From positions 1-27,676 of the forward strand of contig PEWQ01000067.1 of the NCBI GenBank assembly GCA_002780065.1: DNA of 27,676 bases. Reading direction: 5' to 3'. This stretch comes from Candidatus Hydrogenedentes bacterium CG07_land_8_20_14_0_80_42_17. Lineage in GTDB: Bacteria; UBA8481. Under the pieces are notes generated by a model, which worked only from the letters and a program-made list of their open reading frames with translations, did no database searches and had not been told where the DNA came from. Both the position numbers and the translations under genes were made by a program. This document shows positions 6,894 through 27,676 of the stretch, in pieces; the stretch's first letter is position 1, and each line of letters opens with the position of its first letter.

Positions 6894-7110
6894 TTAGTCT
6901 TATTCATAATTCTCAATAAATCTTTGAGCCGCTGATGACTACGAATAAATATTAAAAAATCGAACCACGAATGAATAAAAATATATTCGAACCACGAATG
7001 AACACTAATAAACACAAATTATTAAATAAGTTATTAATATTTATTTTTTTATTCTTATTAGTGAAGATTCGTGTCCATTAGTGGTTCATAATTCCGTGTC
7101 CATTAGTGGT
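6894..7110. other. Convergent intergenic stretch with repeats
   Basis: This region lies between the converging rlmN and cstA. It is strongly AT-rich and holds two copies of CGAACCACGAATGAA (6961-6975 and 6988-7002), an AT-rich centre, and the start of a 25-base tandem repeat that runs into cstA. No intrinsic terminator with a clear stem plus T-run was found for either gene. No small gene is supported. Confidence 0.6.
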
Positions 7111-7136
7111 TCATAATTCCGTGTCCATTAGTGGTT
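6961..7136. repeat. Inverted repeat family GAACCAC...GTGGTTC with 25-base tandem units
   Basis: The left arm holds CGAACCACGAATGAA twice (6961-6975, 6988-7002), the second followed by cactaataaac. The right arm holds reverse-complement words ending in gtgtccattagtggttc. The unit cataattccgtgtccattagtggtt is exactly repeated at 7087-7111 and 7112-7136, and a diverged copy sits just before (7062-7086, matching in its last 17 bases). The arrangement is a loose palindrome around an AT-rich centre. The last cstA codons fall inside the right arm. Confidence 0.7.
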
Positions 7137-8844
7137 CAATTTTTTCTATCGGTTTTTTCCATATCACAAAAGCCTCTGCAGCAAGCCACACTGCAAGCAC
7201 CATCAAAATCGCTGCTACTCCGGCTTCAACAGAATACAAAGCCGCAACTGATCCGGATGAAACTTTTTTGTAATAATCGAAACCCGTCAGAATTAAACTC
7301 CACAATGTCATTACACACATAAAAAAGAATCCAAAGAGCGGCAAGGCATAATGCTTTCCAATATGCCTCAGCCACACAGCCACAGCTAACAAAGCTAATG
7401 CGGCCAGAAGCTGATTCGAACTTCCAAAAAGATTCCAAAAAACCCGCCACAGCGGCATCTCCTTGCCGTTCAAAGTCGCAGACGGCAGAGAGACTACTAA
7501 AACAGGAAGAACTAAAGTAATTACGGTAGCCCAAATAATTCCTCTTCGTCCTGTCCAACCTGTAAGCTCCATCAAAATATAGCGCGCTAATCTTGTGCAC
7601 GCATCCAATGTATCGAATATAAAAGTTGCAAAACAGAGAAGAGCAAATTGATAAAGCGTCTGAGTAGGAACAGTTTTCAAAAATGCAAAATTAAGAAAAT
7701 TGGAAATTCCATTTGCGTAGATAACATCAGGTTTGCCTTTCGGCTCAACAAGAATCATGACAGCGGCAAGTGAGAGACATGCGAAAAGGCCTTCAAGAAG
7801 CATGCCTCCGTAAGCGACAGGACGGGCGTCACTTTCGCGCGAGAGCTGTTTCGATGTCGTGCCTGATGAAACGACAGAATGAAATCCCGAGCATGCGCCG
7901 CACGCTACGGTAATAAATAAAATGGGAAAGATAGGTCTTACGCCTTCAGTCCCGAAAAAAAGAGGTGCATTCGAAAATGCCGGCGCATTGATCGCAATCC
8001 CTCCTGAGAGGCCTCCGATCAAAATGCCGGCAAATCCTAATATCATGATGAAATAAAGAAAATAGCCTCCTAGCTCACCCCGCGGCTGAAGCAGGAGCCA
8101 AACAGGAGTTATCGACGCGATGAAGCAGTAAGCGAGCAACAAATAATTCCATAACTTCTGACCATGCCCCGGAAATATTTTTTCGAGATCGAGCGACATA
8201 AAAGGTCCTGCAAGAATTGCCACGAGCACAAGCGGAAGAAATATCGCTTTAGCCGGGCCCGACTTCAAGCCTGAGCGCATCGACAAGCCCATGAAGGCTG
8301 CAAGAAGAAGATAAAGAATCGATGATGTTGCCACTGCAGGGCCGGGAGCCGTTGCGTCTTCCGTAGATGCAGTCTGAACAAATGCTCCGGCAGTCACATC
8401 AGCAAAAGCTATGATCACATAAATTAATGTCAGCCAGATAAATATCAAAAAAAGTTTGTAAGCCCTCTGATTTATATACTGCTTGACGATCTCGGCAACT
8501 GACCTTGCAGAGTGCCTGACCGATGCAACAAGAGTTGTGAAATCATGAATTCCTCCGATAAATATCGAACCGAAAATTATCCATAACCACGTAGGTCCCC
8601 AGCCAAAAAGAGTTCCGGCGAGAATTGGCCCTACTATCGGTCCTGCGGCAGAAATTGCGGAGAAATGCTGAGGCAGTAAAGCTTTCCATCCAATCGGTTC
8701 AAAATCCAATCCGTCTCTTCTGGTAAAAGCCGGAGTTGTATTGTCGTCTTTCAATCCCATCCATTTTGTTATCCACGCGCCCATAAAAATGTATGCAGAA
8801 AAAAAGATAAGAGCCGAAATTACGACAAATATGATTAGTGACAT
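7111..8844 (-). CDS. cstA: CstA-family transporter (carbon starvation protein A type)
   Basis: CstA-family proteins are inner-membrane transporters linked to uptake of peptides or pyruvate during carbon limitation. The 577-residue protein is hydrophobic throughout, with well over a dozen membrane segments. It carries family motifs such as GPIVGPILAG near 68-77 and FGSIFIGGIHDF near 91-102. It is shorter than E. coli CstA (about 700 residues), so it belongs to a short subgroup. The ATG at 8844 is preceded by GAGAGGG (8856-8850). The final residues, EPLMDTEL, are encoded by an intergenic-type repeat, so the native end may have been longer or different. The substrate cannot be told from sequence. 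Confidence 0.92.
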   Translation of the reverse strand: MSLIIFVVISALIFFSAYIFMGAWITKWMGLKDDNTTPAFTRRDGLDFEPIGWKALLPQHFSAISAAGPIVGPILAGTLFGWGPTWLWIIFGSIFIGGIHDFTTLVASVRHSARSVAEIVKQYINQRAYKLFLIFIWLTLIYVIIAFADVTAGAFVQTASTEDATAPGPAVATSSILYLLLAAFMGLSMRSGLKSGPAKAIFLPLVLVAILAGPFMSLDLEKIFPGHGQKLWNYLLLAYCFIASITPVWLLLQPRGELGGYFLYFIMILGFAGILIGGLSGGIAINAPAFSNAPLFFGTEGVRPIFPILFITVACGACSGFHSVVSSGTTSKQLSRESDARPVAYGGMLLEGLFACLSLAAVMILVEPKGKPDVIYANGISNFLNFAFLKTVPTQTLYQFALLCFATFIFDTLDACTRLARYILMELTGWTGRRGIIWATVITLVLPVLVVSLPSATLNGKEMPLWRVFWNLFGSSNQLLAALALLAVAVWLRHIGKHYALPLFGFFFMCVMTLWSLILTGFDYYKKVSSGSVAALYSVEAGVAAILMVLAVWLAAEAFVIWKKPIEKIEPLMDTEL

Positions 8845-24012: not shown

Positions 24013-25092
24013 GTGTCTCTCTCGATTGGAATTCTATCAGGAACAAGCTCTGACGGAATAGATGTCGCTGTTGTAAACAGCGCGGCAGTTTCTCCTAAAA
24101 TTATATTTGGTGAAACATTCAAGTATTCCAAACAGATATCTTTACTGCTAAAAAAGATTCCTGATATCGAGCTACCCGAAGTTGCAATTCTCGATAAAAA
24201 AATCGGAGAAGAGTTTGCAAAAGCAGTTAATACTTTGCTGAAACTGTCCGGAATAAACAGAAAAAGAATAAAAGTTATAGGTTCTCACGGGCAAACTCTC
24301 TTTCATATTCCAAAAAAATCTTCTCTTCAAATCGGCTCTCCTGCAGTAATTGCAAAGCTGACTGGAATTCCGGTTGCGGCGCAATTTCGAATGGATGATA
24401 TTGCATTGGGAGGAGAAGGAGCTCCGCTCACGCCGCTTCTTGATCTTTTGATTCTTGGCAAAAGTTCGAGAAAGAAAAAAATTGCAGCTCTTAATCTCGG
24501 AGGAATAGCAAATATCTCCGTCATATCGAATGGAAAAATCGAATCAGCATACGATATCGGGCCGGCAAACAGTCTTATCGATGCGGCATGCAGAAGATTG
24601 CTTGGACAAGCATTCGACAGAAACGGAGTTATTGCAAGCAAAGGAAAGATAGATGAGGCTTGGATTGCTTCAGCTCTTCGTCATCAATATTTCAAAATAA
24701 AGCCTCCAAAATCAACAGGTATAGAATCCTTCGGAGAATGCTGGCTGGAAAATATTGGATTCTTCAAACACAATATACCGCCTGCCGACGCAATCGCAAC
24801 TCTGACTGAATTCACAGCAAGAAGTATTGCGCGTGATATTAGCAGGTATAATCTCCAAAAAGTTTTTGTTTCAGGCGGAGGATTAAAAAATACTTTTTTG
24901 ATGAAGAGATTGGAGACTCTCACAAAAATAAATTTTGTATCGTTCGAAACATTAGGCATTGATCCTGACCTCAAAGAGGCTGTGCTCTTTGCTTATCTCG
25001 GTGAGATGAGGCTTCTAAAAAAAGAACTCAATTTACAAAATATAACAGGCTGTAAACGTAAATGTGTGCTTGGAGGATTATGGCAACCTTGA
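24013..25092 (+). CDS. anmK: Anhydro-N-acetylmuramic acid kinase
   Basis: Opens and phosphorylates 1,6-anhydro-MurNAc to give MurNAc-6-phosphate, the MurQ substrate. ILSGTSSDGIDVAVV near residues 7-21 is the ATPase-fold phosphate loop (GTSxDGID). SHGQTLFHIP, LNLGGIANIS, YDIGPANSLID and VFVSGGGLKNTFLM are family motifs. The 359 residues are a normal length. The start is a GTG at 24013, right after murQ. Codons for residues 320-357 lie in a 115-base segment duplicated at 26983-27097. This copy ends LGGLWQP, whereas the duplicate would end LGGLWLP, so the last two codons and the stop here probably came with the inserted cassette. Confidence 0.95.
   Translation: MSLSIGILSGTSSDGIDVAVVNSAAVSPKIIFGETFKYSKQISLLLKKIPDIELPEVAILDKKIGEEFAKAVNTLLKLSGINRKRIKVIGSHGQTLFHIPKKSSLQIGSPAVIAKLTGIPVAAQFRMDDIALGGEGAPLTPLLDLLILGKSSRKKKIAALNLGGIANISVISNGKIESAYDIGPANSLIDAACRRLLGQAFDRNGVIASKGKIDEAWIASALRHQYFKIKPPKSTGIESFGECWLENIGFFKHNIPPADAIATLTEFTARSIARDISRYNLQKVFVSGGGLKNTFLMKRLETLTKINFVSFETLGIDPDLKEAVLFAYLGEMRLLKKELNLQNITGCKRKCVLGGLWQP
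24969..25083 (+). repeat. Left copy of a perfect 115-base direct repeat (anmK 3' end)
   Basis: Every base from 24969 to 25083 matches 26983-27097; the offset is exactly 2014. The repeat starts one base before codon 320 of anmK and ends after the Trp codon near its stop. Flanks on both sides differ. It forms the left boundary of the accessory cassette. Confidence 0.97.
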
Positions 25093-25194
25093 AATGTAAC
25101 ATCATATCTGAACAGACAGTTCACACTGCGGAGTACATGTCGAAAACTGACTATAATTATAATTTCCTGTCATCGTCATCAAAACTTTAAAAAT

Positions 25195-26715
25195 TTAATT
25201 TCCTGCTGGTGCTTCATGAGCTCTTATTGGATCATGCTTATCAGTTAAATAATAATTATCGTTTCTGACAATAAGGCACTTTGGTAAATGAATCATTAGC
25301 ACCTCATTTGAATCAGGGTTGATTACTACCAGACCTATTTTCATTCGTTGGTAACAATAAATTTCAGGCCAACTTATTTCAACTATTGAAAGCCATTCTA
25401 ATTTATTTTGTTGTTCAATTATTCTCTTCACTGTCGAAAAAAATTCATGGTTAGCATATCGTTTTAACAAATCTGAAGTTTTAATAAATAACGGTCTCAG
25501 TACTAAATTACTGGTATGTTCGCAAAATTGCCGAGCCCATAAAATATCATCACCTTTTATTTCATTTGTATCCAATAAATTTCTGTATAACTTTGCAAAC
25601 TCTTTTAAAGCAATATATGCGATCCTCTCTGATTGCAGCGGAGTAATCTTAATTGAAGAAGATGGAAGTATGACCACATAGGCTACAAGTATTTCTGCAA
25701 ATTTTTCCCATGGAATAAATAGATATGGTCCGAAATTATCATCATGAATTATAAAATTTCTAATCCATGCCATATTTGAATGATATTGTCCGTCTCCAGA
25801 TAACGGACGGTGATAATAACCAATATCTGCCATTGCAAGCCAGTTATTCCTATCAAAAGTATGTCCTATAACAGATATTGCATGAAATTGTTTTCCAGCT
25901 TTTACAATACATAGAATTGGCCAGCCTGATTCAAAAAAACCATAAATATTTGTTTCAGGCCTCGCAGATTTAATCATTTCTTGCGTAAGTGTAAAATAAT
26001 TCTGAGTTTTAAAAGGAATATTCATTTTCTTCAAGCAATTATTTATCTCTTGAATTGTTAAGCCTCTCCTAGAATCAGGTTTAATTTCTTCAGTAAGTAC
26101 TCCTGCCTCTAAACTTATTGCAGAAGCAGTTGTGACAGAAAAAATTTGGCGATTTTCTTTATTATTCCAATAATCAGCGATCGTCGCTAATACAGCTTGA
26201 GCACACATAACAATGCCGTTATCTTTTTCAATATAAGGAAATCCACTCACACTTACACTCAAACCTTTAACTATTTCTGTTTTCGAAGTTATTTTATTTA
26301 CTAAAAATGCATAATGATCCTTTTCACGTATAATGATTTTTTCAGATATTAAAGAATAAGAAATACTCCAGTCTGGTCGAAAAATGCAAAAACCTAAATA
26401 AATTAAAGTATCTTTCTTTTCAATTAGTTCATCAATTGAATCATAACCGCCATCAAAAAAATGGAATATTTTTGCGCTATCAGACGGGTCTGAACCGTAA
26501 TCTTTGCATTCATTAATGTAATGATAAAAAAGTTCATATGTTTTAGAAAAATTAACTTCTAAAATTGTAGTTTCATGGTCCTGCCTTATCAGAGAATGAA
26601 ATATTTTATGAGCAGGAATTCGTTTATTTGAGATATTTCGAGTTTGAAAAAAATTTATTAAATCTTCAGCTTTTTTTATTTTTAAAAGATTTATTTTAAA
26701 TTTTCCGAATGGCAC
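25195..26715 (-). CDS. Putative papain/C39-like cysteine peptidase-fold protein
   Basis: 506 residues, not assignable to a named gene. The middle region has the order of a papain-like or C39-like active site: C171 in GIVMCAQAVLATIADYW, H278 in QFHAISVIGH, and D325/D326 in IIHDDNFGPYLFIP. The spacing and the DD-N-GPY signature resemble bacterial C39-like proteins of unknown role. The N-terminal 150 and C-terminal 150 residues are unrecognised, and there is no signal peptide or membrane helix. The start is a GTG at 26715, only one base past the stop of the small gene (TAATGTG), so translation is probably coupled. Base composition suggests recent acquisition. Whether it cleaves peptides or has another transfer activity is open. 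Confidence 0.6.
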   Translation of the reverse strand: MPFGKFKINLLKIKKAEDLINFFQTRNISNKRIPAHKIFHSLIRQDHETTILEVNFSKTYELFYHYINECKDYGSDPSDSAKIFHFFDGGYDSIDELIEKKDTLIYLGFCIFRPDWSISYSLISEKIIIREKDHYAFLVNKITSKTEIVKGLSVSVSGFPYIEKDNGIVMCAQAVLATIADYWNNKENRQIFSVTTASAISLEAGVLTEEIKPDSRRGLTIQEINNCLKKMNIPFKTQNYFTLTQEMIKSARPETNIYGFFESGWPILCIVKAGKQFHAISVIGHTFDRNNWLAMADIGYYHRPLSGDGQYHSNMAWIRNFIIHDDNFGPYLFIPWEKFAEILVAYVVILPSSSIKITPLQSERIAYIALKEFAKLYRNLLDTNEIKGDDILWARQFCEHTSNLVLRPLFIKTSDLLKRYANHEFFSTVKRIIEQQNKLEWLSIVEISWPEIYCYQRMKIGLVVINPDSNEVLMIHLPKCLIVRNDNYYLTDKHDPIRAHEAPAGN

Positions 26716-26716
26716 A

Positions 26717-26872
26717 TTAAAATCGTATCGATGACAGTTCAGTTGGAATATTTTCTAATATAACTTCCTCATTACGATTAGCATCTATCTCTTTTTTAAC
26801 TGCCTCATCAACCATTGCAAATAATTCTTTAACTAAATCAGAAGAATTTCTACCTTCATCTACCGACTCCAT
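26717..26872 (-). CDS. Small protein upstream of the peptidase-like gene
   Basis: 51 residues, MESVDEGRNSSDL to ELSSIRF, acidic and predicted mostly helical (LVKELFAMVDEAVKKEI). The start is chosen at the ATG at 26872 because GAGGAGGAG lies directly upstream on the minus strand; an earlier in-frame ATG at 26899 lacks such a site. It is tightly coupled to the 506-residue protein. It could be a regulator, inhibitor or leader-like substrate of that protein, by position only. No family was recognised. Confidence 0.6.
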   Translation of the reverse strand: MESVDEGRNSSDLVKELFAMVDEAVKKEIDANRNEEVILENIPTELSSIRF

Positions 26873-26982
26873 ATATCTCTCCTCCTCACGTTGGTGCATT
26901 GAAATAATCCTGGATTTAAAAATTAAAGCAAGAAAATATTTTACTCTGGCCTCGCCTGTATAAACGACGCATGCTTATCCAG

Positions 26983-27097
26983 CCTCAAAGAGGCTGTGCT
27001 CTTTGCTTATCTCGGTGAGATGAGGCTTCTAAAAAAAGAACTCAATTTACAAAATATAACAGGCTGTAAACGTAAATGTGTGCTTGGAGGATTATGG
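26983..27097 (+). repeat. Right copy of the 115-base direct repeat
   Basis: Identical base for base to 24969-25083. The next bases, ttgccgtaa, continue the anmK frame as Leu-Pro-stop instead of the Gln-Pro-stop of the left copy. It lies against the convergent terminator. Confidence 0.97.
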
Positions 27098-27106
27098 TTG
27101 CCGTAA
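26983..27106 (+). pseudogene. 3' fragment of anmK
   Basis: Encodes the last 38 shared residues of AnmK (LKEAVLFAYLGEMRLL to LGGLW) and then LP and TAA at 27104-27106. The frame is open for some codons to the left (ACLSS) but has no start codon or RBS, so it is not expressed as a gene. It is probably the original gene end, left behind when the cassette was inserted. Confidence 0.85.
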
Positions 27107-27135
27107 AAAACAAGAGCCCGGAATATTCCGGGCTC
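27105..27135 (-). terminator. Intrinsic terminator of the rightmost gene
   Basis: GAGCCCGGAAT / ATTCCGGGCTC (27114-27135) is a perfect 11-base-arm palindrome. On the minus strand it is followed by TTGTTTTTT, the expected U-tract, about 50 bases after the stop of the last gene. On the plus strand the following bases are not T-rich, so it serves the leftward gene. Its T-tract overlaps the TAA of the anmK fragment. Confidence 0.88.
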
Positions 27136-27182
27136 AAGTTATGTATGAAGTTATAAATAAGACCTGATGAATTGATTATGAG

Positions 27183-27676
27183 TTACGCGCTCAATTCCTG
27201 CATCAATTCCTCTAAAGGAGTTTGGTCATTAATTTTGTTCTGTAAACTCTTTGAATTTTCTGCCGAATTCAATGCCTTCAATAAGCCGTCGGCATTCTTT
27301 GTTGCATCTCTCTTCGATGCGGCGTCATGAAGAAGAGTCAATAGATCAGTATGGCCGTTAGAATCGAGTTCTTCAGGCAGAGCAAATATTTGATCGAGTT
27401 TTAATTCTGGAAAAACATTCTGCGATGCTGAAGATACCGCTTCAAAAAAACTCGACGCAGTATTCTTCATCTCATTTGCGATTCCATCCAACGCGTTATT
27501 GGAAAGTCCTAACGACTTTTCGACCTCATCGAACAATGCCTCAGTTGCATCAAAAAATTTGGTCAGAGCTTTATCATCCAATCCTGCCAATCCTTTTACT
27601 GCATTAGAAAAAGAATCCAAAACCTTTGGATCTATCTCTTGAGCTAAATCAGCTAGTGAAAAGAACCTTCCGGAAA
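27183..27676 (-). CDS. Unknown protein, C-terminal part only
   Basis: The frame is open to the window edge without a stop or an obvious start, so the gene continues beyond 27676. A TTG at 27620 is unlikely to be the true start. About 164 residues are visible, starting SGRFFSLADLAQEIDPK and ending LEELMQELSA. They are rich in Leu, Ala, Asp, Glu and Asn with few aromatic or Cys residues, and look helical and soluble (repeated patterns such as LDDKALTKFFDATEALFDEVE). No family was recognised. It is followed by the strong terminator at 27105-27135 and originally faced anmK tail to tail. Confidence 0.6.
   Translation of the reverse strand, partial: SGRFFSLADLAQEIDPKVLDSFSNAVKGLAGLDDKALTKFFDATEALFDEVEKSLGLSNNALDGIANEMKNTASSFFEAVSSASQNVFPELKLDQIFALPEELDSNGHTDLLTLLHDAASKRDATKNADGLLKALNSAENSKSLQNKINDQTPLEELMQELSA

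Follow-up and report, generated by a model that had tools for sequence, protein, structure and literature searches.

A two-gene accessory cassette enclosed by a duplicated anmK end, and similar cassettes at duplicated gene junctions, in a Candidatus Hydrogenedentes genome

Integrative elements that rely on a tyrosine recombinase insert at the 3' ends of genes, with icd and tRNA genes as targets, and in the minimal mobile elements of Neisseria a fixed junction between conserved genes houses accessory genes, which move by homologous recombination in the adjoining genes. In E. coli, S. aureus, and S. pyogenes, 10 to 18% of the small variable segments are flanked by direct repeats, 66 to 94% of these flanking repeats are shorter than 30 bp, and homology-assisted illegitimate recombination has been proposed for many of the segments (Touzain et al. 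2010, PMC2884548). Homology-facilitated illegitimate recombination, a process of naturally competent bacteria, is also discussed there (PMC2884548).

In the window analyzed here, a stretch of 27,676 nucleotides from Candidatus Hydrogenedentes bacterium CG07_land_8_20_14_0_80_42_17, the 3' end of anmK is found on either side of two genes. This case is of the same kind as the segments of Touzain et al. (PMC2884548); its duplications are longer and rebuild gene ends, and most of its cargo consists of toxin-antitoxin genes. Both are short accessory segments between backbone genes, but eight of the repeats in this genome measure 59 to 202 bp and duplicate functional gene ends. One homologous anchor and one illegitimate joint would be shared with homology-facilitated illegitimate recombination, as are the lack of a recombinase of their own and the placement of accessory DNA at a conserved gene; however, that process is described in PMC2884548 as a replacement of resident DNA, whereas here we see additions with a duplicated junction at about eleven loci and a cargo of mostly toxin-antitoxin genes. 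As in tyrosine-recombinase elements, the end of the target gene is rebuilt and the displaced fragment is left at the far side, but here there is no integrase, the targets are many, and 5' ends are among them. The minimal mobile elements of Neisseria, as a concept, do without the duplicated junction seen here. In the open-access papers searched, we found no description of longer gene-end-rebuilding duplications combined with toxin-antitoxin cargo.

The two copies (24969-25083 and 26983-27097, both read on the forward strand) are identical over 115 bp and lie in direct orientation at an offset of 2014, exactly as the initial annotation of this DNA had claimed. In 138 contigs or contig pieces, which make up 1.43 of the 2.39 Mb of the assembly, no exact direct repeat within a contig is longer, and the 18-mers of the two copies occur only twice there. 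The left copy lies inside the open reading frame of anmK, which codes for anhydro-N-acetylmuramic acid kinase (24013-25092, forward strand; Pfam PF03702, E = 5.7e-90), and ends in ...GGATTATGG followed by CAA CCT TGA (25084-25092), i.e., W-Q-P-stop, so that the gene is intact with a rebuilt end, as had also been noticed before; these last codons would belong either to the end of a donor gene or to the start of the insert. The right copy ends in ...GGATTATGG followed by TTG CCG TAA (27098-27106, forward strand), i.e., W-L-P-stop, and a terminator stem (27114-27135) separates it from the convergent gene. Since AnmK of the only relative of the same order in the genome collection (G001) ends in GLWLP, as does the right copy, we take the right copy to be the ancestral one, in agreement with the earlier proposal that the original end is the one beside the terminator; on this comparison, the left copy is the rebuilt end, with Q-P-stop as its new last codons. 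That proposal came with the advice to look in relatives for an empty site with LGGLWLP directly before the terminator; AnmK of G001 has the LGGLWLP end, and the gene next to anmK there differs from that of the window. A search of the genome contigs for relatives of anmK gave no match. Across 24800-27300 there were zero Rfam matches, no tRNA was found in the window, and, as first reported, no integrase is evident among its open reading frames. A separate tandem-like exact repeat of 44 bp with an offset of 25 is located at 7070-7138, adjoining and partly inside the end of the gene at 7111-8844.

The insert holds two open reading frames, neither of them integrase-like, and their description as AT-rich holds, with 31.3% G+C against 39 to 40% in the flanks. 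ORF506 (25195-26715, reverse strand) codes for an accessory protein of 506 aa and ORF60 (26717-26899, reverse strand), directly upstream of it, for a protein of 60 aa. ORF506 has no family in Pfam, NCBIfam, or PADLOC, no known toxin or antitoxin family in these three collections matched the pair, and a profile search found no PDB relative of ORF506. Weak relatives of ORF506 were found in three distant genomes (G043, G035, and G080) and on plasmids of Mesorhizobium, Hymenobacter, Shewanella, and Pseudomonas. The residues D164, C170-A171, H277, and D325 are invariant across 8 homologs, with Cys, His, and Asp in papain-like (C39-like) order, which suggests a papain-like fold; a structure model from the single sequence had a pLDDT of 32 and was discarded. 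A protein of 52 to 63 aa adjoins every homolog found and is upstream in 5 of 7, although these small partners align poorly with each other. This pairing of a small with a large protein also occurs on plasmids and in defense-like islands of unrelated bacteria, with neighbors that include multiubiquitin/ThiF operons (on two plasmids), a caspase-family protein, and a TrlF ATPase and, by our own reading of the open reading frames, a methylase/ATPase island at L049. The two plasmids with multiubiquitin/ThiF genes beside the relatives, from Mesorhizobium (L068, 4680-8744) and Pseudomonas aeruginosa (L263, 198-5525), are unrelated to each other. A phage or viral origin of ORF506 was considered and rejected, there being no relatives in viral contigs or phage genomes. 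We read ORF60 and ORF506 as a mobile accessory module, perhaps of the toxin-antitoxin or defense kind, and as such they provide an example of a candidate accessory module without a known family.

The right edge of the insert carries a truncated copy of a dispersed REP-like repeat (26949-26983, forward strand) that ends in TATCCAG(C) and overlaps the anmK sequence by 1 bp. The repeat is about 120 bp long (GGAGGCACAGGC...CGCCTGTGCAAGCGACGCATGCTTATCCAGCACGTGC...GTGCCTCC) and is found in many intergenic regions and at contig ends, with copies such as L003 2521-2640 and C85:5520-5638 and 97 partial matches in the source genome. In the window it breaks off at TATCCAGC (CCAGC) and is joined to the CTCAAAG of anmK, while most of the other copies listed run on as TATCCAGCACG (CACG..). 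What makes this joint readable is that a copy of the genome's own dispersed repeat forms the incoming side, and as read from these bases it is an illegitimate joint with a 1-bp overlap, an overlap compatible with any form of end joining. The left joint, through anmK, is likely the homologous side, which cannot be proved for the window since its two copies are identical. Q-P-stop could be chance insert sequence; from codon counts, we estimate that random insert sequence would give Pro plus a stop in register in about 0.3% of cases. A second high-copy repeat, AT-rich (GAAATAATTGAAAAATGAAAATTGGAAAAATAAAATTTTCAATTTGCAC...), is located at L085 10-80 and on many other contigs of the source genome (G000), frequently at their ends, its 18-mers reaching as many as 116 occurrences in the 1.43 Mb.

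The window is contig 42 of an assembly of 2.39 Mb in 207 contigs that is 87% complete and, judging by its fragmentation, a metagenome bin; the lineage is isolated, with G001 as its single same-order relative in the collection. The initial annotation had advised a search of the genome for other cassettes ending in gene 3' duplications, and we found about ten more, with duplicated ends at 3' ends, 5' ends, and divergent promoters. Scanning 1.43 of the 2.39 Mb for direct repeats within contigs, with high-copy repeats removed and 0.25 to 8 kb between copies, gave 14 direct against 2 inverted unique pairs (binomial for at least 14 of 16, P = 0.002). Eight direct pairs of 59 to 202 bp flank 0.8 to 1.9 kb (the window, L088, L112, L046, L116, L085, L076, and L160) and four are shorter, with 23 to 26 bp (L137, L128, L059, and L029). 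Each of these pairs encloses an accessory cassette, less clearly so at L059, where the left copy is inside a gene. L168 proved to be an ordinary gene duplication and was dropped from the set, and L038 was left out as unclear. Besides the window, the genome thus has about ten cassettes of 0.5 to 2 kb between unique direct repeats of 23 to 202 bp, among them L112 2816-3315, L116 1384-1922, L029 2176-2650, L085 8906-9334, L137 3197-4434, and L160 7088-8137. Toxin-antitoxin or related genes are the cargo of most cassettes; by Pfam, it includes YafQ, Unstab_antitox with ParE, PIN, Fic, HTH with AbiEii, RelB with a HigB-like protein, HicA, PemK, Bro-N, PDDEXK_3, and an aspartyl protease. Even in the source genome there is an exception to this layout, as one toxin-antitoxin pair inside a contig (C92, locus L122) lacks direct repeats at its sides. 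The control set consisted of the surroundings of pyrG at 80 loci in diverse genomes, 1.23 Mb in total with no more than about 20 kb from any one genome; in it, only one pair of at least 50 bp and 94% identity was found at a distance of 0.5 to 3 kb. This pair, at L245 8888-10085 (Omnitrophota MAG JABDFL010000029.1), consists of 52-bp duplicated tRNA 3' ends around an MNT-HEPN-like pair of 1.1 kb, without an integrase between the two copies.

Almost all of the repeats are duplications of a local gene junction that leave both neighbors intact, each using one of the copies. At L085 and L076 the repeat spans the ends of a convergent gene pair where these overlap, at L088 it takes in both starts of a divergent pair, and at L112, L160, and L128 it covers one gene's end plus the start of the next gene; at L046 the repeat is found at the start of proS and at L029 it is the stretch between two convergent stop codons. 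In G001 the junction of L112 is not conserved in readable form. Intact neighbors are the outcome of selection expected for insertions that duplicate a junction.

At one locus, L112, the differences between copies reveal where one of them came from: the 60 bp beside the host gene are identical and the 54 bp beside the cassette differ at 15 sites, a clustering with P = 1e-4 against an even spread. The changes are in phase with the codons, whole codons having been swapped (GTC>AAA, ACT>GTC, TCG>GTT; NFEILRTIDADKIHYVAVALETLLGL versus NFEALRTIDADVIHFTASALETLLGL). Most likely, the cassette-side stretch came with the cassette from a diverged relative and the crossover fell in the identical part. The few mismatches of L085 and L046 are one-sided, lying at that edge of one copy which faces the cassette, whereas L088, L116, and L160 have mismatches on both sides of an identical core of 30 to 53 bp; the clustering is significant only in L112. 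Repeat borders are sharp in the window and at L076.

We put the chances at about even that ORF60 and ORF506 were inserted by homology-assisted recombination, homologous on one side and illegitimate on the other, with no dedicated integrase. On the incoming DNA, both genes would have been linked to a copy of the 3' end of anmK. On the left, homologous recombination within anmK would have given the gene the incoming ending, Q-P-stop; on the right, the incoming REP-like repeat, cut off at TATCCAGC, would have been joined illegitimately, with the 1-bp overlap, to a point in the resident anmK that precedes the end of the stop codon by 124 bp, and the resident stretch from the joint to the stop would thus be present twice. 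Insertions that broke a neighbor would have been lost, leaving as survivors the duplications that keep both adjacent genes whole, and the same process, or the swapping of already duplicated units among relatives, may have produced the about ten other cassettes. The duplication with its direction, the recurrence, the lack of common ends, and the truncated repeat at one joint are observed; the donor molecule, a role for RecA, and the order of events we infer. ComEC is present in the genome, which by itself carries little weight. Homology-assisted insertion is supported by L112, since one of its copies is most likely in part a diverged donor homolog next to the crossover. Among the explanations offered by the initial annotation, a recombination product fits best.

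The swapping of finished units could also account for the whole pattern, although we consider this unlikely: repeat, cassette, and repeat would have come together from relatives and entered an empty site either through homologous recombination within the repeat and the flanking DNA or, as a circle, through one crossover (Campbell type); the first duplication would then be older. The identical cores with edges diverged on both sides at L088, L116, and L160 fit such an exchange as well or better, and the diverged donor junction of L112 agrees with it. So does the truncated repeat at the edge of the window cassette; since this repeat belongs to the lineage's own family, the unit of ORF60 and ORF506 was probably once in a related genome. 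However, differences cluster significantly in L112 only, the first duplication is left without an explanation, and the mismatches of L112, L046, and L085 are one-sided, for which reason insertion through a single illegitimate joint predicts them better than the exchange of ready-made units.

Target duplications of variable length are known in plants from the capture of DNA at staggered breaks. Applied to this genome, opposite-strand nicks tens to two hundred bases apart would have been filled in with a foreign fragment joined between them, and the copies would have come to differ by later mutation. The variable repeat length (23 to 202 bp), the sharp borders in the window and at L076, and the absence of shared ends would suit this process, but it is improbable, as Ku was not found in the 87% complete assembly and the codon-phased multi-base changes of L112, beside 60 identical bases, are unlike decay. 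No shared end sequence was seen among the cassettes, there is almost no repeated DNA inside them, and the duplications vary from 23 to 202 bp, unlike a transposon or insertion sequence with its common ends and target duplication of fixed length. A rebuilt 3' end with the duplicate at the far end, as in the window, is typical of tyrosine-recombinase elements, and the cassettes might then be satellites, each with the end of its target gene as attP and with an integrase encoded elsewhere, a satellite mobilized in trans having been among the first suggestions; the MNT-HEPN pair between duplicated tRNA ends in the Omnitrophota MAG resembles what would be expected. Against this, every cassette has a different target, 5' ends and divergent promoters included, with neither common ends nor a common attachment site among these unrelated genes; none of the cassettes examined has an integrase, and the only two PF00589 tyrosine recombinases of the assembly are Xer-sized (open frames of 331 and 296 aa) and lie outside the insert, which makes satellites very improbable. 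The least probable reading is that the second copy was made by the assembler or by the mixing of strains, an artifact to which the initial annotation had drawn attention: the 115 bp are below the usual read length and this is a metagenome assembly in 207 contigs, but the pattern recurs at many independent loci with repeats of different lengths, some of them with diverged copies, the overlaps at contig ends have no preferred length of 115, and even a mixed path needs DNA that links the cassette to anmK on either side.

Toxin-antitoxin genes are known to pass from one chromosome to another, although how single pairs without a recombinase enter is mostly unclear, and about ten cassettes with duplicated junctions in one genome offer joints that lend themselves to reading, dating, and testing. 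They also give a search rule for any genome, namely, a gene junction found as unique direct repeats at a distance of about 1 kb. Whether these cassettes reveal a systematic route of gene gain not described before, in which small toxin-antitoxin or defense-like cassettes without a recombinase owe their spread to a short copy of a chromosomal junction that they carry, is doubtful on present evidence. If it were so, the junction copy would steer the cassette to the matching site through the homologous recombination of the host, keeping both neighbors whole, and the cassettes could leave again by recombination between the copies.
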